Source: Bdellovibrionales bacterium
GTDB lineage: Bacteria; Bdellovibrionota; UBA1018; CAIMNF01
Direction of reading: 5' to 3'
Assembly (NCBI GenBank): GCA_947372355.1
Contig: CANBTI010000001.1
Span: 82,296-123,238 of the forward strand
DNA: 40,943 nucleotides
Part shown: positions 22,187 to 40,768 of the stretch, piece after piece
Layout of the letters: every line of letters begins with the position of its first letter
Position numbering within the stretch: position 1 is the stretch's first letter
Program-made: the position numbers and the translations under genes
The notes under the pieces: model-generated
The model's input: the letters and a program-made list of their open reading frames with translations, nothing else
Databases searched by the model: none
What the model was told of the DNA's origin: nothing

Positions 22187-22672
22187 ATGGAAAAACATTT
22201 ATCAGAAAAGTTTTATCTAGCGATGAAAAAATTGGAACCACGCTATCCAAATAAAAAAGCATTGATTCTACCAGCCCTGCATCAGGCACAAGAAGAATAC
22301 GGTTGGCTCCCTAAAGAAGTTTTAGAGGAAATTGGAACCTACATAGGTGTACATCCGGCGCAAATTCGCGAAGTGGCAAGTTTCTACACGATGTACAATT
22401 TGAAACCTGTTGGTAAAAATCATTTAAAAATTTGTACGAATGTTGCCTGCTGTTTGCGTGGTGCTGATGAATTAATGAATTTTGCTGAAAAAAAACTCGG
22501 TATTAAATGCGGAGAAACAACATCCGATGGAATGTTTTCATTGTCTGAAGAAGAGTGCCTTGGTGCTTGCACCACCGCTCCGGCAATGATGGCTAACGAC
22601 GAATACATTGAAGAGCTCGATGTAAATAAATTGAATCATTTCATTGAAAAAATGAAGGTGTTGAAAATATGA
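22187..22672 (+). CDS. nuoE: NADH-quinone oxidoreductase subunit E
   Basis: Thioredoxin-like [2Fe-2S] (N1a) subunit of the NADH dehydrogenase module, 161 residues. The ligand pairs are in CTNVACCLRGADEL and EECLGACTTAPAM. An earlier in-frame start exists at 22163, inside nuoD, but ATG 22187 directly after the nuoD stop gives the usual length and N-terminus, with AGGAGA (22167-22172) about 14 bases upstream. It overlaps nuoF by 4 bases. Confidence 0.95.
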   Translation: MEKHLSEKFYLAMKKLEPRYPNKKALILPALHQAQEEYGWLPKEVLEEIGTYIGVHPAQIREVASFYTMYNLKPVGKNHLKICTNVACCLRGADELMNFAEKKLGIKCGETTSDGMFSLSEEECLGACTTAPAMMANDEYIEELDVNKLNHFIEKMKVLKI

Positions 22673-23943
22673 GACAAAACACATTGTTTGAGCAGCATTT
22701 TTGGAAAGATTCTAATCGATCTTTAGATTACTACCTTCAAAACATGAATGGTTATCAGGCCGCACAAAAAGTGCTGAAAGAAATGAATCCTGATCAAGTC
22801 ATTGAAGAAGTAAAAAAAGGAAACTTACGGGGACGTGGTGGCGCTGGATTTCCAATGGGAATGAAGTGGGGATTTATTCCTAAAGCCTCAGAAAAGCCAA
22901 AATATCTTGTTTGTAATGCCGACGAATCTGAGCCAGGAACCTGTAAAGACAGACAGATCATGCGTTACACCCCCCACTTATTAATTGAAGGATTAATCAT
23001 CGGATCATTTGCAATTGGCTGTAAGCATTCTTATATCTATATTCGTGGTGAGTATGTGAATGAAGCTAAACTCCTAAATGCTGCTATTGAAGAAGCATAT
23101 GAAAAAGGATATTTAGGAAAAAATATTTTAGGTTCAGGTTTTGATCTTGATATTACCGTACACCGTGGAGCGGGTGCATACATTTGCGGAGAAGAAACCG
23201 GACTGCTGAACTCCTTAGAGGGTAAACGTGGTGAACCAAGAGTAAAACCTCCTTTTCCAGCTGTTTCTGGTGCATTTGGATGTCCTACGGCAGTGAATAA
23301 TGTTGAATCAATTGCCAATGTTCCACATTTAATTCGAATGGGTGGAGATGCTTTTGCTCAATTAGGTAAAATTGATAAATCAGGCGGAACAAGACTAATT
23401 TCGTTATCTGGACATGTAAAAAAACCAGGAGTTTATGAAATTCAAGCAGGATCGGTAACTTTAAGGCAAATCATTGAAGATATCGGTGGTGGTATTATTA
23501 ACGATAAAAAATTAAAGGCGGTTATTCCAGGCGGATCTTCCTCCCCTATTTTAACGGCTGATGAAATTGATGTCGTTTATGATGTTGAGCCACTCATGAA
23601 AGTTGGAACCATGATGGGATCAGCTGCAATCATGGTGATTCACGAAGATACAGACTTGGTAAAATTATTACTGAGAATAACGAAATTTTATGCTCACGAA
23701 TCATGCGGACAATGCACCCCTTGCCGTGAAGGTTGTCATTGGATGGAATCAATATTACATAAGATTTTACATGGAGAAGCAAAGCCGACAGATCTCGATT
23801 TATTAGTGGATGTTGCACAAAACATAGGTGGAAAAACCCTCTGTGCGTTGGGTGATGCGGCTGCGGGGCCTGTGATTAGTTTTGTTAAAAAATTTAGACC
23901 AGAATTTGAGTCTTACATCAAGGGACAAAAAAGATATGCCTAA
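22669..23943 (+). CDS. nuoF: NADH-quinone oxidoreductase subunit F
   Basis: NADH- and FMN-binding subunit with cluster N3, 424 residues. The glycine-rich site is LRGRGGAGFPMGMKW, near 54-68, with NADESEPGTCKDR following. GAGAYICGEETGLLNSLEG contacts FMN/NADH. The N3 cysteines are in ESCGQCTPCREGC and, about 40 residues on, TLCALGDAAAGP. It starts in an ATGA overlap with nuoE and ends 8 bases inside nuoG. Confidence 0.97.
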   Translation: MRQNTLFEQHFWKDSNRSLDYYLQNMNGYQAAQKVLKEMNPDQVIEEVKKGNLRGRGGAGFPMGMKWGFIPKASEKPKYLVCNADESEPGTCKDRQIMRYTPHLLIEGLIIGSFAIGCKHSYIYIRGEYVNEAKLLNAAIEEAYEKGYLGKNILGSGFDLDITVHRGAGAYICGEETGLLNSLEGKRGEPRVKPPFPAVSGAFGCPTAVNNVESIANVPHLIRMGGDAFAQLGKIDKSGGTRLISLSGHVKKPGVYEIQAGSVTLRQIIEDIGGGIINDKKLKAVIPGGSSSPILTADEIDVVYDVEPLMKVGTMMGSAAIMVIHEDTDLVKLLLRITKFYAHESCGQCTPCREGCHWMESILHKILHGEAKPTDLDLLVDVAQNIGGKTLCALGDAAAGPVISFVKKFRPEFESYIKGQKRYA

Positions 23944-25357
23944 GTGTACGATCGACGGAAAAGAAGTAGAGTTTAAACCAGGTGAAAATCTAATCACGGT
24001 AGCCAAACGTGCAGGAGTTGAAATTCCTGTGTTTTGTTATCATCCGGGCCTTAGTGTGGTTGCTCAATGTCGGATGTGTTATGTAGAGATTGAAAAAATG
24101 CCAAAATTACAAACGGCATGCTCAACAAATGCTGCTGAAGGAATGGTGGTTAAAACACAAAGTGATCCAGTTGTTAAAGGTAGAGCTGGAACAATGGAGT
24201 TTTTATTGTTGAACCATCCACTTGATTGTCCGATTTGTGACAAAGCTGGAGAGTGTGATCTTCAAGATAATTCATTCGGTCACGGAAGCGCAAACATGCG
24301 CCACACTGAAGAGAGACGCACCTATGTAGACGTTGATATGGGCCCAGTGATTGAAAAAAACATGAATCGTTGTATTCATTGCACGAGATGCATCCGTTTT
24401 GGAGAAGAGGTTGCAGGTATTCATGAAATGGTTGCGATTCAACGGGGAAATAATATTGATATCACCACGATTGATGGAAATCCTTTACAAACAGAATACG
24501 CTGGAAATTATGCAGATATTTGTCCAACAGGGTCGCTAACTCTTCGTGACTTTAGATTTCGCAAAAGAGCGTGGATGTTAAAGAAAACTTCAACCATATG
24601 TGAGGGCTGCTCTAAAGGTTGTAATATGGAAATTCAGCATGAAGGTAATGTCATCTATCGTTGTGTTCCACGTGAAAATCTAGAAATTAATAAGTACTGG
24701 ATGTGTGATGAGGGTCGTATGAATTATCATTATACACAAGACGAAAAGCGTATTTTAAATCCACGCAGTGGAGCAACATTTATTGGTTGGGAAGATGCAA
24801 TTCAAACCTTAAAAGATCAGATTAATGAAAAACCGTTAACGGTATTAGTGGGTAGTGATCTAACTCAGCAAGAATTAGAAAATATTTTAGAATATACTAA
24901 AAACTATCATAAAGGATCGTCAGTATATCACTTTGGTACAGAGGGTGTGTTTACGAGCGCTCAAGATCTTCCAGTAGATAAAATTCTTAAAATGAAAAGT
25001 AAAACTTCAAACTTAAACGGAGCAGAGAAATTAGGCATTAAATCCGTTCAAGAGATGAAGTCTGCTTCAGACGTGGTGCTTGTTTTTGCCGGTGGGCGCG
25101 CAAATGTACAATCTGTAACCAAAAAACTAGAAGGAAAGAAACTAATAGGTATTGGTGTTTATTCATTGAATGAAGCTGAATCTTTTTCGATGGTTCTACC
25201 TAGTCTTTCATTTACAGAAAAAGATGGAACTATTTTTAACCACCAAGGAATAGAACAGAAACTTAAAAGAGCGATACAGCCTAAAAACACAATTAAAGCA
25301 ATTTCAGAAATTTTAATGCTCACTGCAAATAAAAAAGTAAAAGTTGGTGCCAATTGA
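23936..25357 (+). CDS. nuoG: NADH-quinone oxidoreductase subunit G (short form)
   Basis: Iron-sulfur subunit that carries electrons from NuoF toward NuoI. ATG 23936 is chosen because AGGGA (23921-23925) precedes it and it starts the ferredoxin fold (MPKCTIDGKEVEF). Ligands seen: FCYHP with CRMC and TACS (N1b), DCPICDKAGECDLQ (N5), NRCIHCTRCIRFGEEVAG and CPTGSL (N6-type/N4), and CEGCSKGC with a final C 28 residues on (N7-type). The length of 473 residues is far below the 700-900 common for NuoG. The molybdopterin-oxidoreductase-like part is reduced to about 220 residues but keeps its closing motif SFTEKDGTIFNHQGIEQ. No frameshift is visible. Confidence 0.93.
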   Translation: MPKCTIDGKEVEFKPGENLITVAKRAGVEIPVFCYHPGLSVVAQCRMCYVEIEKMPKLQTACSTNAAEGMVVKTQSDPVVKGRAGTMEFLLLNHPLDCPICDKAGECDLQDNSFGHGSANMRHTEERRTYVDVDMGPVIEKNMNRCIHCTRCIRFGEEVAGIHEMVAIQRGNNIDITTIDGNPLQTEYAGNYADICPTGSLTLRDFRFRKRAWMLKKTSTICEGCSKGCNMEIQHEGNVIYRCVPRENLEINKYWMCDEGRMNYHYTQDEKRILNPRSGATFIGWEDAIQTLKDQINEKPLTVLVGSDLTQQELENILEYTKNYHKGSSVYHFGTEGVFTSAQDLPVDKILKMKSKTSNLNGAEKLGIKSVQEMKSASDVVLVFAGGRANVQSVTKKLEGKKLIGIGVYSLNEAESFSMVLPSLSFTEKDGTIFNHQGIEQKLKRAIQPKNTIKAISEILMLTANKKVKVGAN

Positions 25358-26418
25358 ATAATCAAGACGTTCTTTTTATGTTTTTGAAAATAGGAATAGT
25401 GTTGGTTGGATTATTATCAGTAACACCAATCATGCTTTTTGTTGAAAGAAGAGGCTCTGCGCTTTTACAAAATCGATTAGGACCAAATCGTTTTGGCCCT
25501 CAAGGATTGTTGCAGTCAGTGCTTGATGTTTTAAAGTTTATTTTTAAAGAAGATAGAGCTCCAGGTCATGTAAACAAGTTTTATTTTTCTTTAGCGCCAT
25601 TAGTCGTCGTCGTTCCTGCGCTCATGACATTTGCGGTAATCCCATTTGCGGGAAATGATTTTATTATTGCAAATCTAGATGTTGGGATTTTGTACTGTTT
25701 TTCGATCGCTTCTTTAGGTGTGTATGGAATTATTATGGCTGGGTGGGCTTCTAATAATAAGTACTCACTTTTGGGAAGCCTTAGAAGTTCAGCGCAAATG
25801 ATTAGTTATGAATTAACGCTAGGACTTTCAATTGTTGGATTAATCATGATTTTCCAAAGTGTAAAGCTTGGAGACATGGTATCAGCACAAGGTGAAACAC
25901 TGTTTTCAATTGGCGGAATTGATGTGCCTAAATGGGGGATTTTCCTTCAGCCAGTAGGATTTATTCTCTTTTTAGTTTCATCTTTTGCAGAAACCAACCG
26001 TTTGCCATTTGATTTACCAGAGGGTGAAGCTGAGCTAATCGCAGGATATCATCTTGAGTATGGATCGATGCGCTTCGCTCTTTTCATGCTTGCTGAGTTT
26101 GTAAGCATGACTGTTGCTTCTGCGCTTCTTTCAACATTGTTTTTTGGTGGTTGGCAGTATTTACCAGGATTTAGCTGGATTGCTCATCTTTTTTCAGACG
26201 GAAATATTGCTGTTACCTATTTAGTGAGTACTTTATTGCATGGGATTTCATTTGTAATAAAAATAGCTTCATTTATGTGGTTTTTTGTTTGGGTTAGATG
26301 GACATTGCCACGCTTTAGATTTGATCAGTTGATGAATTTTGGATGGAAAGTATTGTTACCACTTGCCCTTCTAAATGTATTTGTAACAGGGCTTCTGATT
26401 TACTTAGGGGTACTATAA
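25354..26418 (+). CDS. nuoH: NADH-quinone oxidoreductase subunit H
   Basis: Membrane subunit linking the quinone site to the proton-pumping arm, 354 residues, eight predicted helices. GSALLQNRLGPNRFGPQG and FAETNRLPFDLPEGEAEL are the conserved cytoplasmic loops. The start appears to be TTG at 25354, overlapping the nuoG stop by 4 bases; the first ATG (25378) would cut 8 residues from helix 1 and is a possible alternative. Confidence 0.95.
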   Translation: MNNQDVLFMFLKIGIVLVGLLSVTPIMLFVERRGSALLQNRLGPNRFGPQGLLQSVLDVLKFIFKEDRAPGHVNKFYFSLAPLVVVVPALMTFAVIPFAGNDFIIANLDVGILYCFSIASLGVYGIIMAGWASNNKYSLLGSLRSSAQMISYELTLGLSIVGLIMIFQSVKLGDMVSAQGETLFSIGGIDVPKWGIFLQPVGFILFLVSSFAETNRLPFDLPEGEAELIAGYHLEYGSMRFALFMLAEFVSMTVASALLSTLFFGGWQYLPGFSWIAHLFSDGNIAVTYLVSTLLHGISFVIKIASFMWFFVWVRWTLPRFRFDQLMNFGWKVLLPLALLNVFVTGLLIYLGVL

Positions 26419-26420
26419 TT

Positions 26421-26864
26421 ATGTTAGCACAAAGAAAAACAGGTTTTTTTAACAAATTTTACTTAGTGGAGATCATTAAGGGCTTAATGATCACCATGCG
26501 TAATATGCTTTTTGCAAAAAGAGCAACCATTCAATTTCCAGAAGAAAGAAGAGATTATTCTGAAAAATTTCGCGGACAACATTATATAAAGTCAGTGAAT
26601 GGAGTAGAGAATTGTACGGCTTGTATGTTGTGTCCTACTGTTTGCCCCGCTGAATGTATTCATATTGTTGCAGGCGAAAGAGAAGATAAAGAAAAATATC
26701 CGATTAAATTTGAAATCGATTCTTTGCGTTGCTGTTTTTGTGGAATGTGCGAAGAGGCTTGTCCAAAAGACGCAATCAAATTGAGTAATATTTATGAAAT
26801 GAGCCAACAAAACAGAACTGTATATGAAAAAGAGTTTTTATTAGAACAAAGAGGGAATAAATAA
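26421..26864 (+). CDS. nuoI: NADH-quinone oxidoreductase subunit I
   Basis: Ferredoxin-like subunit with clusters N6a and N6b, 147 residues. The two motifs are CTACMLCPTVCP and CCFCGMCEEACP. ATG 26421 follows AGGGG (26405-26409) and lies 2 bases after nuoH, whereas the longer frame from 26343 would run inside nuoH without reason. Its TAA shares one base with the nuoJ ATG. Confidence 0.96.
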   Translation: MLAQRKTGFFNKFYLVEIIKGLMITMRNMLFAKRATIQFPEERRDYSEKFRGQHYIKSVNGVENCTACMLCPTVCPAECIHIVAGEREDKEKYPIKFEIDSLRCCFCGMCEEACPKDAIKLSNIYEMSQQNRTVYEKEFLLEQRGNK

Positions 26865-27406
26865 TGGATTGGATCTTTGTAGCATTTATTGTTTTCTCAA
26901 CAATAGCGATTTTAGGATCTCTAATGGTTGTTTTACAAAAAACCCCCGTTTCATCAGCATTCTCATTGGTTTTGGTTTTTTTCTCATTTTCAGGTTTGTA
27001 CGCTCTATTAGGAGCTCACTTTATTGCAGCCCTTCAAATTTTGGTTTATACGGGAGCAATTATGGTTTTGTTTGTATTTGTAATTATGCTTCTTGGTCAG
27101 GATCAACCTACTTCCGATCTTAAAGATTCTTCACTGCTGTTTAAGGGAATTACCCTGCTTGGTGCAATTGGTTTGTTGAATGTTTTACTGCAAGCAGCAC
27201 TTAGTTCTAAAGATATTGTTGGTAAGGGTGTGTATACCGAAGAAAAAATTAATGAAATGGGTGGAAACTTAAAGAGCATTTCGGAAGTGCTCTTCAAAGA
27301 TTACGTTTTTCACTTTGAATTAGTTTCATTTCTAATCTTAGGAGCAATTGTAGCAACAGTGGCTTTGGCCAAGAGAAAAAACTCTCTTTCAGGAGGAGTG
27401 TCATGA
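26864..27406 (+). CDS. nuoJ: NADH-quinone oxidoreductase subunit J
   Basis: Membrane-arm subunit with five predicted helices, 180 residues. The conserved stretch ALLGAHFIAALQILVYTGAI holds the pi-bulge helix seen in complex I structures, followed by MVLFVFVIMLL. It overlaps nuoI by one base and nuoK by four. Confidence 0.95.
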   Translation: MDWIFVAFIVFSTIAILGSLMVVLQKTPVSSAFSLVLVFFSFSGLYALLGAHFIAALQILVYTGAIMVLFVFVIMLLGQDQPTSDLKDSSLLFKGITLLGAIGLLNVLLQAALSSKDIVGKGVYTEEKINEMGGNLKSISEVLFKDYVFHFELVSFLILGAIVATVALAKRKNSLSGGVS

Positions 27407-27705
27407 ATGATCCATGGTTAATGTTAATCGTTTCCTGCACCGTTTTCGTTATTGGATTAATTGGCGTTATTTTTAGAAAAAATCTATTGGTTGTTTTGAT
27501 GTCCATTGAACTAATGTTGAATGCAGTTAATCTTTCATTTGTGGCTTTTTCAAAAATTCACCATGTGCTTGATGGTCAAATAAATGCGTTATTTGTGATG
27601 ACCGTTGCTGCTGCAGAATCAGCGGTAGGACTCGGATTGGTGATTGCAATGTTTAGAACGCTTAAAACGGCGGATTCCGATCAAATCCAGATGCTGAGAG
27701 ATTAA
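27403..27705 (+). CDS. nuoK: NADH-quinone oxidoreductase subunit K
   Basis: Three-helix membrane subunit, 100 residues, the usual size. The two functional glutamates on the proton path are present at Glu36 (MSIELMLNAVNL) and Glu72 (AAAESAVGLGLVIA). A strong Shine-Dalgarno, AGGAGGAG, lies just before the ATG inside nuoJ. NuoL begins 1 base after its stop. Confidence 0.96.
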   Translation: MNDPWLMLIVSCTVFVIGLIGVIFRKNLLVVLMSIELMLNAVNLSFVAFSKIHHVLDGQINALFVMTVAAAESAVGLGLVIAMFRTLKTADSDQIQMLRD

Positions 27706-27706
27706 T

Positions 27707-29554
27707 ATGAGTATATTATTGATCGTTTTATTCCCATTAATTGGTTTTTTAATTAACGGGATCAGATATATAATCAGCACTAAAAAAGGGACAAAAATAT
27801 CAAGTCAACAATCTGGAATGATTGCTACTTTTGCAATGGTTTTATCTTTTTTAGTATCGGTTTATTATTATTTTCAATTTAATGGCCAATCAAATGAAGT
27901 TAAATTAATCGATCAAAATTTATTTTCTTGGATAAAAATAGGTGCATTTCATTTGGATTTTGCATTAAGGCTTGATCCATTGAGTTTACTTTTTTCATTA
28001 ATTATTACTGGTGTTGGATCTTTGATTCACCTTTATTCGATTGGATATATGAAAGAAGATGCTTCGCCTGCAAAATACTTTTCATATTTAAATTTATTTT
28101 GCTTCATGATGCTAAATCTAGTCTTAGGTTCATCCATGCCACATGTATTTTTGGGCTGGGAAGGCGTTGGATTGGCTAGTTATCTGTTGATCGGATATTG
28201 GAATCTTGATGTTGAAAAAGTAATGGCCGGTCAAAAGGCGTTTGTCATGAATCGCATTGGTGATCTTGGTTTTCTAATCGCCATGTTTGTTGCTTACAAA
28301 TATGTAGGTTCCCTTGATTTAATTGAAATCCAGAAATCCACAATGAGTCCATTTGTGGTTACTGTTTTTACTGGATTAGTGTTTTTTGCTTGTACTGGAA
28401 AGTCTGCGCAAATTCCACTTTTCACATGGCTTCCCGATGCGATGGCAGGTCCAACTCCTGTTTCTGCGCTCATCCATGCGGCAACAATGGTTACAAGTGG
28501 CGTTTATCTTTTAAATAGAATTTCTCCATTATTGATTCAAGCCCCACAAGTTTTATCGGTTATTGCTATCGTTGGTGTTACCACAGCATTCATTGCAGCC
28601 ATTATCGCTTGTGCTCAAAAAGATATTAAAAAAATTCTGGCCTACTCTACCATTTCACAGCTTGGATTTATGTTTTTAGCCTGTGGTGTTGGCGCATTTG
28701 ATGCCGGAGTTTTCCATGTGATGACCCATGCATTTTTTAAAGCACTGATGTTCTTAGGTGCTGGAAGTGTGATTCATGCTCTACATGAAGAACAAAATAT
28801 TTTTAAAATGGGCGGATTAAGTAAAAAACTACCCATCACTACGATCACATTTGTAGTGGGATGGGCCGCAATTTTGGGAATTCCTCCTTTTAGTGGTTTC
28901 TTTTCAAAAGATGAAATTATTATTGAATCACTAAACTCACCCTATGGAAATCAAGTGTTGTTTGCTATGGCACTATTAACCGCCTTACTCACAGCATTTT
29001 ATATGACCAGACTATTAGTTTTAGTTTTTTTTAGTCCATCAAGAATGGACAAGGATGTTGAAGAGCATGTTCACGAATCACCGCTGGTGATGACATTCCC
29101 ACTAATTGTTTTGGCTGTTTTATCCTTAATTGGTGGATTTTGGCACCACTCTGAGGGAGCGCACGAAAACTCACAAATGATCATGATTACCAGTGTTGCG
29201 GTAGCGATTCTTTCGGCAGGATTTTCTTTTTATCGATATCGTAAATTCGACAGTGAAGAGCAAACAAATAACTTTATTGAGAATGGTTTGGGAATTAATA
29301 ATTTTTATAACAACTTTTTTGGAAAAGGAGTGACCATTGTTTCAAAGGGGTTGTTTCGCTGGATTGAAGCAGGAATTATTCAAAATGGACTAAAGTTTTG
29401 TACTTGGGCCGTAGAGTTTTCTGGAAATGTGCTTAAGTCGTTTCAGGTAGGTTCAGTTCAGGTTTATCTAATGATGATGGTTTTGTTAGGTTTATCACTC
29501 ATGATTTGGGTTTTACAGGGAGTGATGCATGGGGTGTTAATTTATGGAAAATAA
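27707..29554 (+). CDS. nuoL: NADH-quinone oxidoreductase subunit L
   Basis: Antiporter-like distal proton-pumping subunit, 615 residues. Conserved segments include WEGVGLASYLLIGYW with its key glutamate, GKSAQIPLFTWLPDAMAGPT with the broken-helix lysine, and HVMTHAFFKALMFLGAGSVI. The long C-terminal part fits the lateral helix HL that braces the membrane arm. NuoM begins 11 bases before its stop. Confidence 0.96.
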   Translation: MSILLIVLFPLIGFLINGIRYIISTKKGTKISSQQSGMIATFAMVLSFLVSVYYYFQFNGQSNEVKLIDQNLFSWIKIGAFHLDFALRLDPLSLLFSLIITGVGSLIHLYSIGYMKEDASPAKYFSYLNLFCFMMLNLVLGSSMPHVFLGWEGVGLASYLLIGYWNLDVEKVMAGQKAFVMNRIGDLGFLIAMFVAYKYVGSLDLIEIQKSTMSPFVVTVFTGLVFFACTGKSAQIPLFTWLPDAMAGPTPVSALIHAATMVTSGVYLLNRISPLLIQAPQVLSVIAIVGVTTAFIAAIIACAQKDIKKILAYSTISQLGFMFLACGVGAFDAGVFHVMTHAFFKALMFLGAGSVIHALHEEQNIFKMGGLSKKLPITTITFVVGWAAILGIPPFSGFFSKDEIIIESLNSPYGNQVLFAMALLTALLTAFYMTRLLVLVFFSPSRMDKDVEEHVHESPLVMTFPLIVLAVLSLIGGFWHHSEGAHENSQMIMITSVAVAILSAGFSFYRYRKFDSEEQTNNFIENGLGINNFYNNFFGKGVTIVSKGLFRWIEAGIIQNGLKFCTWAVEFSGNVLKSFQVGSVQVYLMMMVLLGLSLMIWVLQGVMHGVLIYGK

Positions 29555-38213: not shown

Positions 38214-39239
38214 ATGGAAGATAGATTGATTTCTGGTGAAGAAATTACTAATGAACGAAGCGAAATTCAGGTGGAGCAAACCCTTCGTCCTCAACAGCTT
38301 GAAGAATACATCGGGCAAGAATCGGTACGTGAAAAAATTTCTTTATTCATAAAAGCAGCAAAACAGCGCGGAGATGCGCTAGATCATGTATTGCTTGCGG
38401 GTCCTCCGGGTTTGGGTAAAACCACTCTTGCTCAAATTATTGCGCGTGAAATGGGCTCACAAATTCACATCATTACTGGACCGACCGTTGAAAAAAAGGG
38501 TGATCTTGCAGCGGTGCTTACCAATCTTCAGCCCGGAGATGTTTTATTTATTGATGAGATTCATCGGTTGCACATGGCGATTGAAGAAGTTCTTTATGGG
38601 GCCATGGAAGATTTTAAATTAGATCTCATTATTGGTCAGGGCCCTTCGGCTCGAACCATTAGAATTGATCTTCCTCGATTCACACTTGTGGGCGCCACCA
38701 CTCGCACAGGATTACTATCGAGCCCACTTCGTGGACGTTTTGGTGTGGAGATGCGACTTGATTTTTATTCGCACGAAGATCTTGCTAAAATTGTGATGAG
38801 ATCAGCTCGCCTGTTAAATATTAACATTGAAAATGCGGGTGCAATTGAAATTGCAAAACGATCAAGAGGAACTCCAAGAATTGCAAATCGATTAATTAGA
38901 AGAGTGAGAGATTTTGCGCAAGTAAAGTTCAAGTCTGTTACTGGTTTTGATATTGATAAAGTTACCGTTGATCAAGCTCTTCGTTTGTTTGAGGTGGATG
39001 AGCGTGGTTTAGATTCAATGGATCGAAAACTGCTGACCTCAATGATTGAAAAATTTGATGGTGGTCCTGTGGGCATTGAAACTCTTTCAAGTATGCTCTC
39101 AGAAGAGCGAGATACCATTGAAGAGGTTTATGAGCCCTTTTTGGTTCAAGAGGGATTTATTCAACGCACACCTCGCGGAAGAGTGGCTACCGCACTAGCC
39201 TTTTCACATTTGGGATTCCCACCAAAGCCAATCGTCTAA
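38214..39239 (+). CDS. ruvB: Holliday junction branch migration ATPase RuvB
   Basis: AAA+ hexameric motor that drives branch migration with RuvA, 341 residues. Walker A is GPPGLGKTT, Walker B is FIDEIHRL, sensor 1 is [13 protein letters not shown] with the arginine finger in RGRFG, and a winged-helix C-terminus ends [27 protein letters not shown] precedes ATG 38214, 9 bases after ruvA. It is the last gene before a 185-base gap. Confidence 0.97.
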
Positions 39240-39240
39240 G

Positions 39241-39270
39241 TGTATACAAACGTGCACAGTTGTTGTGCAC
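39241..39270. promoter_or_regulatory. Palindromic sites upstream of lpxC (candidate activator or operator site)
   Basis: TGTATACA (39241-39248) is a perfect 8-base palindrome and is followed by the inverted repeat GTGCACA, loop GTTGT, TGTGCAC (39252-39270). No T-run follows, so a terminator for ruvB is unlikely. The dyad is centred about 145 bases before the predicted sigma-54 start site, a typical distance for enhancer-binding protein sites. Confidence 0.45.
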
Positions 39271-39379
39271 ACTTAGTTACAGTTATTCGGATTCAAAAAA
39301 ACAGTCAAATCAATGGCAAAAAAATCAGCATAAACACTTGAAATTAAAAGATAATTTTAATTTATTCAATATTGCGTTA

Positions 39380-39395
39380 TGGCACAAGCATTGCT
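39380..39395 (+). promoter_or_regulatory. Sigma-54 (RpoN) promoter of lpxC
   Basis: TGGCAC (39380-39385), five bases AAGCA, then TTGCT (39391-39395): an exact match to the core TGGCAC-N5-TTGCW, with GG and GC spaced as required. The predicted start site is near 39406, leaving a leader of about 19 bases that includes GAGGGA (39412-39417) before ATG 39425. The rest of the gap (39271-39379) is AT-rich; TTGAAA at 39338 has only weak -10 partners. Confidence 0.72.
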
Positions 39396-39424
39396 GTATT
39401 CATGATGAGTCGAGGGACTAAATT

Positions 39425-40366
39425 ATGGAAGATAACTCTATCTATCAAAAAACAGTGCGTAAGGATGTCACCATTGAAGGTGTTGGCTTACATTCTGGAA
39501 AGCCTGCAAAGTTAGTGATCAAACCAGCTCTTCCTAATGCTGGAATAATTTTCGTACGCACAGATCTTGAAAAGCCAGTCACCATCCCTGCTTCTTATGA
39601 GTTTGTAACTCAAACTAAATTGGCAACCACCATTGGTCGCGACCAAGCAAAAATTTCTACTGTTGAACATCTTCTTTGTGCTCTGAAACTCATGCAAATT
39701 GATAACGCTATGATTGAAGTTTCTGGCCCTGAAGTTCCAATCATGGATGGTTCCGCCGCTCCATTCTGCAAAGCGATTGCATTGGCTGGGGTGCGCGAAG
39801 AAGTATCAGCACTTAGAAAAGTAGCTATTTTACGTAAAAGAATTGAAGTTCGTAAGGGTGATAAAATTGCACTAATCGAACCATCTACTCGTTTTCATAT
39901 TAACGCTAGAATCGAATGGAATCATCCTGCAATTGGCACTCAATCATTTGAGTACACTGTGGGTGAAACTGATTATCAAGAAGTTGCAAGTGCACGCACC
40001 TTTGGTTTTATGAAAGATGTTGAGGCACTTAAGAAAATGGGTCTCGCTTTGGGTGGATCATTTGATAATGCTGTGGTGATGGACGAAGAAAAAGTTTTAA
40101 ATTTAGAAGGACTTCGTTACGCAGATGAATTTGTTCGCCACAAAGTTCTCGATGCAATCGGAGATTTTGCACTTTCTCCAGTTCAAGTGATGGGTGATGT
40201 GACGTTGGTTAAAGCCGGTCATGAAATGCACTCAGAGCTCATTCATGCAATTTTTTCTAATCCAGATAACTTCGAAGTGGTAACGATTGAAGAGGCTATT
40301 ATTGAAGAAGAGAGCCTAGGTGTATTGGAAACGAATTGGGCAGCAGTTCTTCAAAGAACCTATTAA
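39425..40366 (+). CDS. lpxC: UDP-3-O-acyl-N-acetylglucosamine deacetylase
   Basis: Zinc amidase for the committed step of lipid A synthesis, 313 residues. The zinc ligands are His82 in VEHLLCAL and His239 with Asp243 in RHKVLDAIGD. The catalytic histidine region GHEMHSEL, the glutamate-bearing loop VPIMDGSAAPF and the start GVGLHSGK are all typical. It stands alone behind its own sigma-54-like promoter rather than in a cell-division or lpx operon, and the next gene is over 100 bases away. Confidence 0.96.
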   Translation: MEDNSIYQKTVRKDVTIEGVGLHSGKPAKLVIKPALPNAGIIFVRTDLEKPVTIPASYEFVTQTKLATTIGRDQAKISTVEHLLCALKLMQIDNAMIEVSGPEVPIMDGSAAPFCKAIALAGVREEVSALRKVAILRKRIEVRKGDKIALIEPSTRFHINARIEWNHPAIGTQSFEYTVGETDYQEVASARTFGFMKDVEALKKMGLALGGSFDNAVVMDEEKVLNLEGLRYADEFVRHKVLDAIGDFALSPVQVMGDVTLVKAGHEMHSELIHAIFSNPDNFEVVTIEEAIIEEESLGVLETNWAAVLQRTY

Positions 40367-40468: not shown

Positions 40469-40768
40469 ATGAGTAAGAAAAAAGGCAAATTCGATCTAAC
40501 AAAACTGGTACACGATGGCTTTATCAAGGACGGAGAAACTTTTAGTTTCGTCAGTGATCCAACAAAACAATTCACGGTTCAAAAACAACCTAATAACGAA
40601 TATAAAATTAAAACAGCTGCGGGAACAACCACTGTGCATGCTTTTGCACAAACATGCTTAGGACAAGAACCACCTAACCATGCATCCTATTGGTTTAAAA
40701 ACAGCAAAGGTGAAACCATGTATCAAATATGGCAAGCTGACTGCGAAGAAGATCAATACGCAGCATAA
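40469..40768 (+). CDS. Small RAMA-like domain protein, function unknown
   Basis: A 99-residue soluble protein with a basic N-terminus. The order LVHDGFIKDGETFSFVSD, a beta-rich middle, VHAFAQTCLG and a final YWFKNSKGETMYQIW resembles the RAMA domain (often found with restriction or methylation enzymes), in which LLxAGLLxPGDxL, a PSxAA helix and a WxxW stretch occur in that order. The match is by eye only. It is monocistronic, with a strong ribosome binding site before it and a hairpin terminator after it. Two cysteines (63 and 91) and the acidic CEEDQ tail are notable. Confidence 0.7.
   Translation: MSKKKGKFDLTKLVHDGFIKDGETFSFVSDPTKQFTVQKQPNNEYKIKTAAGTTTVHAFAQTCLGQEPPNHASYWFKNSKGETMYQIWQADCEEDQYAA

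Follow-up and report, generated by a model that had tools for sequence, protein, structure and literature searches.

Which form of RNA polymerase transcribes lpxC, and at whose command, is the question raised by the region that separates this gene from ruvB in an uncultured Bdellovibrionales bacterium. According to the available part of one report (PMC3333781), E. coli and Pseudomonas regulate lpxC mainly at the protein level. For the stretch of DNA analysed here (40,943 nucleotides, contig CANBTI010000001.1, assembly GCA_947372355.1; hereafter the window), the initial annotation had proposed a quite different arrangement, namely a near-ideal sigma-54 (RpoN) element, TGGCAC-N5-TTGCT at 39380–39395, directly before lpxC, with the consequent need for an ATP-driven activator. 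The letters, the position and the identity of lpxC were confirmed, and the comparisons described below suggest that the whole intergenic region (39240–39424) is a complete sigma-54 promoter of lpxC with two enhancer sites, likely driven by an NtrX-like protein; the probability of this reading is put at about two in three.

The lpxC gene (39425–40366, + strand) codes for a protein of 313 amino acids that scores 336 bits against TIGR00325 (cut-off 187) and matches PF03331 with an E-value of 1.2e-99. Its upstream neighbour is the open reading frame of ruvB (38214–39239, + strand; PF05496 and PF05491), and the region between them, 39240–39424, contains every control element proposed here. The −24/−12 element, TGGCACAAGCATTGCT (39380–39395, + strand), lies 45 bp upstream of the lpxC ATG and shows the GG-N10-GC spacing within the TGGCAC-N5-TTGCW pattern, the GG being at 39381–39382 and the GC at 39393–39394. 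The geometry of sigma-54 promoters is well established and places a predicted transcription start at about 39406 (39405–39407, + strand), 24 bases 3' of the second G of the GG. The resulting leader would be 19 nt long and would contain a Shine-Dalgarno-like GAGGGA (39412–39417, + strand), with 7 bases between it and the ATG at 39425. Elsewhere in the window, at least three genes of NADH dehydrogenase (complex I) are found at 22669–29554 on the + strand (PF01512, PF00146, and PF00361), and a small protein encoded after lpxC (40469–40768) weakly resembles the RAMA domain (21.9 bits, below the cut-off of 35.2).

Taken alone, the match at lpxC is only suggestive. A single copy of TGGCAC-N5-TTGCW is present in the window, where shuffles lead one to expect 0.06 (6 of 100 shuffles reach one), and the 2.73 Mb of the genome contain 10 copies against one of the reversed pattern; by these counts a single match is only moderately unlikely by chance. 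What makes the one before lpxC decisive is its conservation across the class. The genome, which is 93% complete in 125 contigs and whose nearest named relatives mostly bear the title Bdellovibrionales, does code for the sigma factor (rpoN; PF04552, E-value 2.5e-66; TIGR02395, 449.9 bits, cut-off 277). No relaxed sigma-54 site is present within 350 bases upstream of its ntrY or its rpoN. Four of the nine other strict matches in this genome (L004, L005, L009, and L011) lie 28–70 bases before genes whose products begin like exported proteins or lipoproteins, and the remaining ones fall within frames or have no near gene.

Conservation was followed through 58 genomes of the class: the one under study, 11 others from its genus and, outward from there, a further 1 from the family, 42 from the order, and 3 from the class. 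A match to lpxC was found in 52 of them, and GG[CT]A[CT]-N5-TTGC is present upstream of lpxC in every one of these 52 (a first set of 50 regions plus G048 and G051, added later); dinucleotide shuffling of the 50 regions produces the same pattern in 0.66% of cases. The elements lie about 15–75 bases before the extrapolated lpxC start, and are kept before lpxC genes with as little as 43% identity to the query. Conservation of the GG, the A, and the TTGC is not independent of the search, since the pattern itself fixes these letters; at the other positions of the 50 regions, a C follows the GG in 47, a T precedes the GG in only 18, and a T follows the TTGC in 35, while the spacer and the flanks otherwise vary widely. 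The element is thus a sharp footprint rather than shared background. In a set of 80 lpxC loci, the strict pattern matched in 13 (L042–L051, L054, L064, and L067), of which L042–L051 appear to come from genomes already among the 58. Beyond the phylum, two Desulfobacteraceae genomes carry TGGCACGGGCTTTGC before lpxC, with a TGTG-N10-CACA dyad that is perfect in L064 and 7/8 in L067, and two Desulfomicrobium genomes carry TGGCAT-N5-TTGA together with an intact NtrX; no strict site was present among these 80 loci in those titled as alpha- or gammaproteobacteria. Some titles should be taken with caution: the lpxC of L042 (CALPVV020000008.1) is 85% identical to that of the window and a genome search places it in the window's own genus, so the title Nitrosovibrio sp. 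Nv4 looks wrong, and the title Klebsiella pneumoniae of L057 may be mislabelled too.

Upstream of the element, the class shares a second feature. Dyads of the form TGTG-N10-CACA are found about 100–220 bases upstream of the sigma-54 element, and those of the window sit just behind the ruvB stop, where putative activator site 1, TGTATACAAACGTGCACA (39241–39258, + strand; centre at about −156), and putative activator site 2, TGTGCACACTTAGTTACA (39264–39281, + strand; centre at about −133), each fit 7 of the 8 positions and are 23 bp apart. A pair scoring at least 14/16 is present in 42 of the 52 regions (40 of the first 50 and both of those added later, G048 and G051, with scores of 14 and 16) against 0.22% of shuffles, for a spacing of 22–37 bp that was chosen after inspecting the regions; a perfect single dyad is present in 29 of the 50 regions against 0.62% of shuffles. 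Within the window's own genus (11 genomes) the two dyads start 23–25 bp apart; elsewhere the figure is 31–37 bp, with one exception (L149, 23 bp), and the difference between clades thus amounts to about one helical turn. Within the genome, site 1 is the sole exact match to TGTRNAC-N4-GTRCACA, and the only dyad pair (one pattern, up to two mismatches) is the one at lpxC. A regulon defined by the dyad was considered and rejected: the 80 matches with up to two mismatches compare with 92 for the reversed control, so there is no genome-wide dyad signal, and only the lpxC pair stands out. The dyads look like enhancer sites for a sigma-54 activator. Beyond the class they do not separate groups, genomes with an intact NtrX scoring 6–8 of 8. 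In five Bdellovibrio genomes (G059, G086, G091, G095, and G097; L402–L406) a perfect dyad is found 283–286 bases before lpxC, yet there is no sigma-54 site.

Several other explanations of this region have to be weighed. That the element is a chance match kept by shared descent and devoid of function is hardly credible, in spite of the shuffles that reach one exact match per 41 kb, because it persists in 52 of 52 regions despite drifting spacer and flanks and lpxC identities down to 43%, a footprint that already contradicts chance. Transcription by sigma-70 in place of sigma-54 was rejected: the promoter scan found no sigma-70 promoter in 39240–39424, and no conserved one emerged from the 50 regions, whose mean best score (8.70) equals that of the shuffles (8.61). 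A softer version, in which basal lpxC expression comes from a sigma-70 promoter or by read-through out of ruvB and sigma-54 adds the inducible part, is rather unlikely. In its favour, lpxC usually ranks among the essential housekeeping genes, and single relatives have good sigma-70-like matches (e.g., TTGACG-N17-TATTAT in L031); the sigma-70 scores speak against the promoter half of this proposal and leave read-through aside. The dyads, for their part, could be read as a terminator or attenuator of ruvB, given that the inner halves of those in the window (GTGCACA-N5-TGTGCAC) can pair and that a terminator-like inverted repeat was called at 39272–39252 on the − strand. This is very improbable, as no + strand terminator was called at the dyads and the change of spacing by about one turn between clades, with each dyad kept, should break the inner pairing, whereas it would fit a bound protein. 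On these comparative signs, control of lpxC by sigma-54 through a real and functional element, as the initial annotation had held, is very probable: the element recurs in all 52 regions, rpoN is present and a sigma-70 promoter is not conserved.

The identity of the activator is a harder matter. The genome has 19 matches to the Sigma54_activat domain, 12 of them with E-values of 1.3e-39 or lower. One of these proteins, L122 (G000:C3:52270-53670), is encoded away from lpxC and combines a receiver, an AAA+ sigma-54 domain, and a Fis-type HTH (PF00072, PF00158, and PF02954). Its best NCBIfam family is NtrX (NF051870), with 499 bits; it is termed NtrX-like because this lies under the 600-bit equivalog cut-off. 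Its best PDB match by sequence is 5m7n, named nitrogen assimilation regulatory protein. The adjoining kinase has HAMP, PAS, HisKA, and HATPase domains, and its NtrY_N score is 21.0 bits in this genome (cut-off 23.2) and 33.1 bits in G016. An NtrX-like protein is found in 51 of the 58 genomes, the one under study included (E-values of 1e-140 or lower). The seven with no match at 1e-140 (G004, G005, G021, G023, G047, G050, and G052) are mostly incomplete, although G005 is 97% complete, and five of them, G005 among them, have the sigma-54 site. In a Desulfobacteraceae genome, an NtrX-like regulator gene directly follows lpxB (L312:1480-4080, − strand), a physical link between NtrX and lipid A synthesis; in that same genome lpxC has the site and a 7/8 dyad (L067).

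Other activators were examined along with it. An activator encoded beside lpxC was discarded, as tblastn with 11 activators of the genome found none in 80 lpxC loci while the positive control was found. In G055 and G057 an activator does lie within 9 kb of lpxC, and these too were set aside: L167 pairs reciprocally with none of the activators of this genome, and L229 belongs to the L127 type. The same applies to L130, which we take to be GlrR-like by its resemblance, and which has no reciprocal best hit among the matches listed in G002 (98% complete, site present). The activators of eight relatives were gathered through a Walker A or GAFTGA filter among the matches listed, a filter by which L133 of this genome and, in B. 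bacteriovorus, the decayed NtrX dropped out of the reciprocal comparisons. Among these listed matches, three of the 12 own proteins, L122 (NtrX), L129, and L131, have reciprocal best hits in all eight genomes. B. bacteriovorus kdesi, whose lpxC has no site, retains reciprocal best hits of the L123, L124, L127, L128, and L131 types among its 10 motif-bearing activators, whereas the best match of L122 in that set differs in its DNA-binding domain and L129 finds no reciprocal partner there.

The evidence that points to NtrX is its co-variation with the lpxC site. Among the 66 genomes in which both genes were read, a sigma-54-like site precedes lpxC in 45 of the 48 with intact NtrX motifs by a relaxed pattern, which was defined after the sites were seen and turns up in 2–3% of shuffles, and in 37 of the 48 by the strict one, against 0 of the 18 with degenerate motifs by either pattern. 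When G048 and G051, read later, are added, the intact group becomes 47 of 50 and 39 of 50. Outside the 58 relatives, the proportions are 14/17 (relaxed) and 6/17 (strict) against 0/18 (Fisher p of 3e-7 and 0.008, respectively). These counts cover 31 of the 50 class genomes with the site, those in which NtrX motifs were read, and the NtrX of G065 was assigned by place and HTH only. G006, G032, G048, G051, and G090 were left out because the region upstream of lpxC was unread at that point, G058, G064, G067, and G070 (from a set of 17 genomes) for having no clear NtrX, and G075 and G099 for having no NtrX match. Of the latter six, G058 combines a strict site with a perfect dyad and G064 shows a weak site, whereas G067, G070, and G075 have no site and G099 has no lpxC match. 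Three genomes with an intact NtrX have no relaxed site (G066, G088, and G074), and the strict site of G078 is 144 bases upstream of lpxC. The same pattern is seen within the B. bacteriovorus order alone, where NtrX was found in 27 of 29 genomes and both genes in 26: the 10 with intact motifs have 5 strict and 9 relaxed sites (four with TTGT at −12), and the 16 with degenerate motifs have none of either kind. On the LpxC tree, the state of NtrX changes at least 6 times and that of the site at least 7 times. A conservative independent-pairs test found four pairs on supported branches, of which 3.1 on average go in the same direction and 0 in the opposite one, with a median p of 0.25; this is non-significant and points the same way as the co-variation, in a test that reaches 0.05 only with at least six differing pairs.

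The loss of the motifs can be followed best in B. bacteriovorus. In strain kdesi and four near genomes, the lpxC site is absent and the sigma-54 machinery of NtrX has decayed. The B. bacteriovorus protein, found with L122 as query, has GAMPGV instead of GAFTGA and IAE instead of LDE at Walker B; its gene is preceded by a kinase gene and followed by one whose start resembles that of the prolyl-tRNA synthetase located next to ntrY in the present genome. Since 10 of the 11 strong activator matches in kdesi keep G[AS]FTGA and NtrX alone has lost it, the decay there is specific to NtrX. In total, 19 of the 71 NtrX proteins read are degenerate (L320, L327, L375–L379, L387, L389, L391–L393, and L395–L401), and the HTH of all 19 is still NtrX-like, 9–17 of 27 positions being equal to the own protein (mean of 14.8, against 17.8 for the 52 intact ones). 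Judging by these motifs, the 19 decayed proteins probably act without sigma-54.

An activator other than NtrX working on the same promoter and enhancers, for instance an L129-type response regulator or a single-component activator, is unlikely. In its favour, L129 and L131 likewise occur in each of the nine genomes compared, and L129, as said, is without a reciprocal partner in the motif-bearing set of B. bacteriovorus; furthermore, NtrX binding to the dyads is putative, and the tentative NtrX motif in the available part of a published study, GCA-N9-TGC (PMC7240162), differs from TGTG-N10-CACA. On the other side, decay of NtrX goes together with loss of the lpxC site (a comparison run for NtrX alone), and among the motif-filtered activators of B. 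bacteriovorus, which has no site, those of the L123, L124, L127, and L131 types have their motifs intact. NtrX is the best-supported guess for the activator of the lpxC promoter, and a fairly probable one. The initial suggestion that an ATP-driven activator is needed also gains by these results, through the upstream dyad pairs and the co-varying NtrX-like AAA+ regulator. By contrast, its further suggestion of a tie to growth phase or to a predator's life-cycle switch gains no support from these results, which give no sign of predation.

If the NtrX reading is followed, the promoter would comprise, from 5' to 3', the two enhancer sites after ruvB, an A+T-rich spacer, the −24/−12 element, and the 19-nt leader. 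Sigma-54 RNA polymerase would wait on the element as a closed complex; a phosphorylated AAA+ activator, most likely the NtrX-like regulator encoded beside an NtrY-like membrane kinase, would bind both TGTG-N10-CACA dyads and, by looping of the DNA, drive the opening of the promoter at the expense of ATP. In this way lpxC, and hence the flux towards lipid A, would track the signal of the activator. In its broadest form, which is tentative and may well be wrong, this reading would make NtrYX and sigma-54 an old, dedicated switch for lpxC in Bdellovibrionota and at least some Desulfobacterota, with promoter and activator decaying together in several lineages, B. bacteriovorus included: the lpxC site would have been lost, and NtrX would have lost its ATPase and GAFTGA motifs and kept its receiver and DNA-binding domains. 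The alphaproteobacterial NtrX, which to our knowledge has no GAFTGA motif and affects the envelope independently of sigma-54, would be another remnant. If all this is true, a whole class of bacteria gates lpxC through sigma-54, and its lipid A synthesis depends on an ATP-driven activator. The co-variation would provide NtrYX, whose role as a two-component pair is unsettled, with a concrete candidate for a direct target, testable in vitro, and it offers an explanation for the NtrX proteins that have no sigma-54-contacting motif (19/71).

Among the open-licence papers listed, no sigma-54 control of lpxC in Bdellovibrionota was found, nor NtrX as sigma-54 activator of lpxC, and no precedent was seen there for the class-wide conservation, the twin sites or the NtrX link; the main text of a 2025 survey of sigma-54 regulons mentions neither lpxC nor lipid A nor Bdellovibrion- (PMC12316311). 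The kind of control is nevertheless not new, since it is known in D. vulgaris. In this bacterium, the sigma-54-dependent regulator DVU2934 has lpxC (DVU2917) as its single target, according to the portions available of two reports (PMC3333781; PMC4641369), and its validated motif before lpxC was described, in the accessible text of the former, for only two of the other genomes scanned, D. vulgaris Miyazaki and D. desulfuricans G20 (PMC3333781). DVU2934 is an NtrC-family response regulator for which lpxC was the single DAP-chip target, and here the dyad pair (one pattern) is found only at lpxC. On the other hand, DVU2934 belongs to another phylum and its operon also codes for a kinase and an HD-GYP regulator, whereas the regulator proposed here stands beside an NtrY-like kinase. 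Alphaproteobacterial NtrYX provides a second parallel, sharing the NtrX family, control of the cell envelope, and a change of lpxC RNA when ntrYX is lacking. In Rhodobacter sphaeroides, loss of ntrYX raises lpxC RNA 8.8-fold, and the study, having found no NtrX site before lpxC, regards the effect as indirect (PMC7240162); a 2025 review, in the part available, likewise lists lpxC among dozens of other genes and describes inhibition of its transcription by NtrYX in two alphaproteobacteria (PMC12444477). In R. sphaeroides, then, lpxC RNA goes up without NtrYX, whereas direct sigma-54 activation is proposed here. In Leptospira, a −24/−12 element has been predicted before lpxC as well (PMC12655853), in this case in another phylum, as a prediction only, and with the lpxC activator unnamed in the available text. 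Finally, sigma-54 has been viewed as a controller of the bacterial exterior, in the part available of an earlier work (PMC3162934), and the strict matches of the present genome that lie before exported-like genes (4/9) fit this theme.
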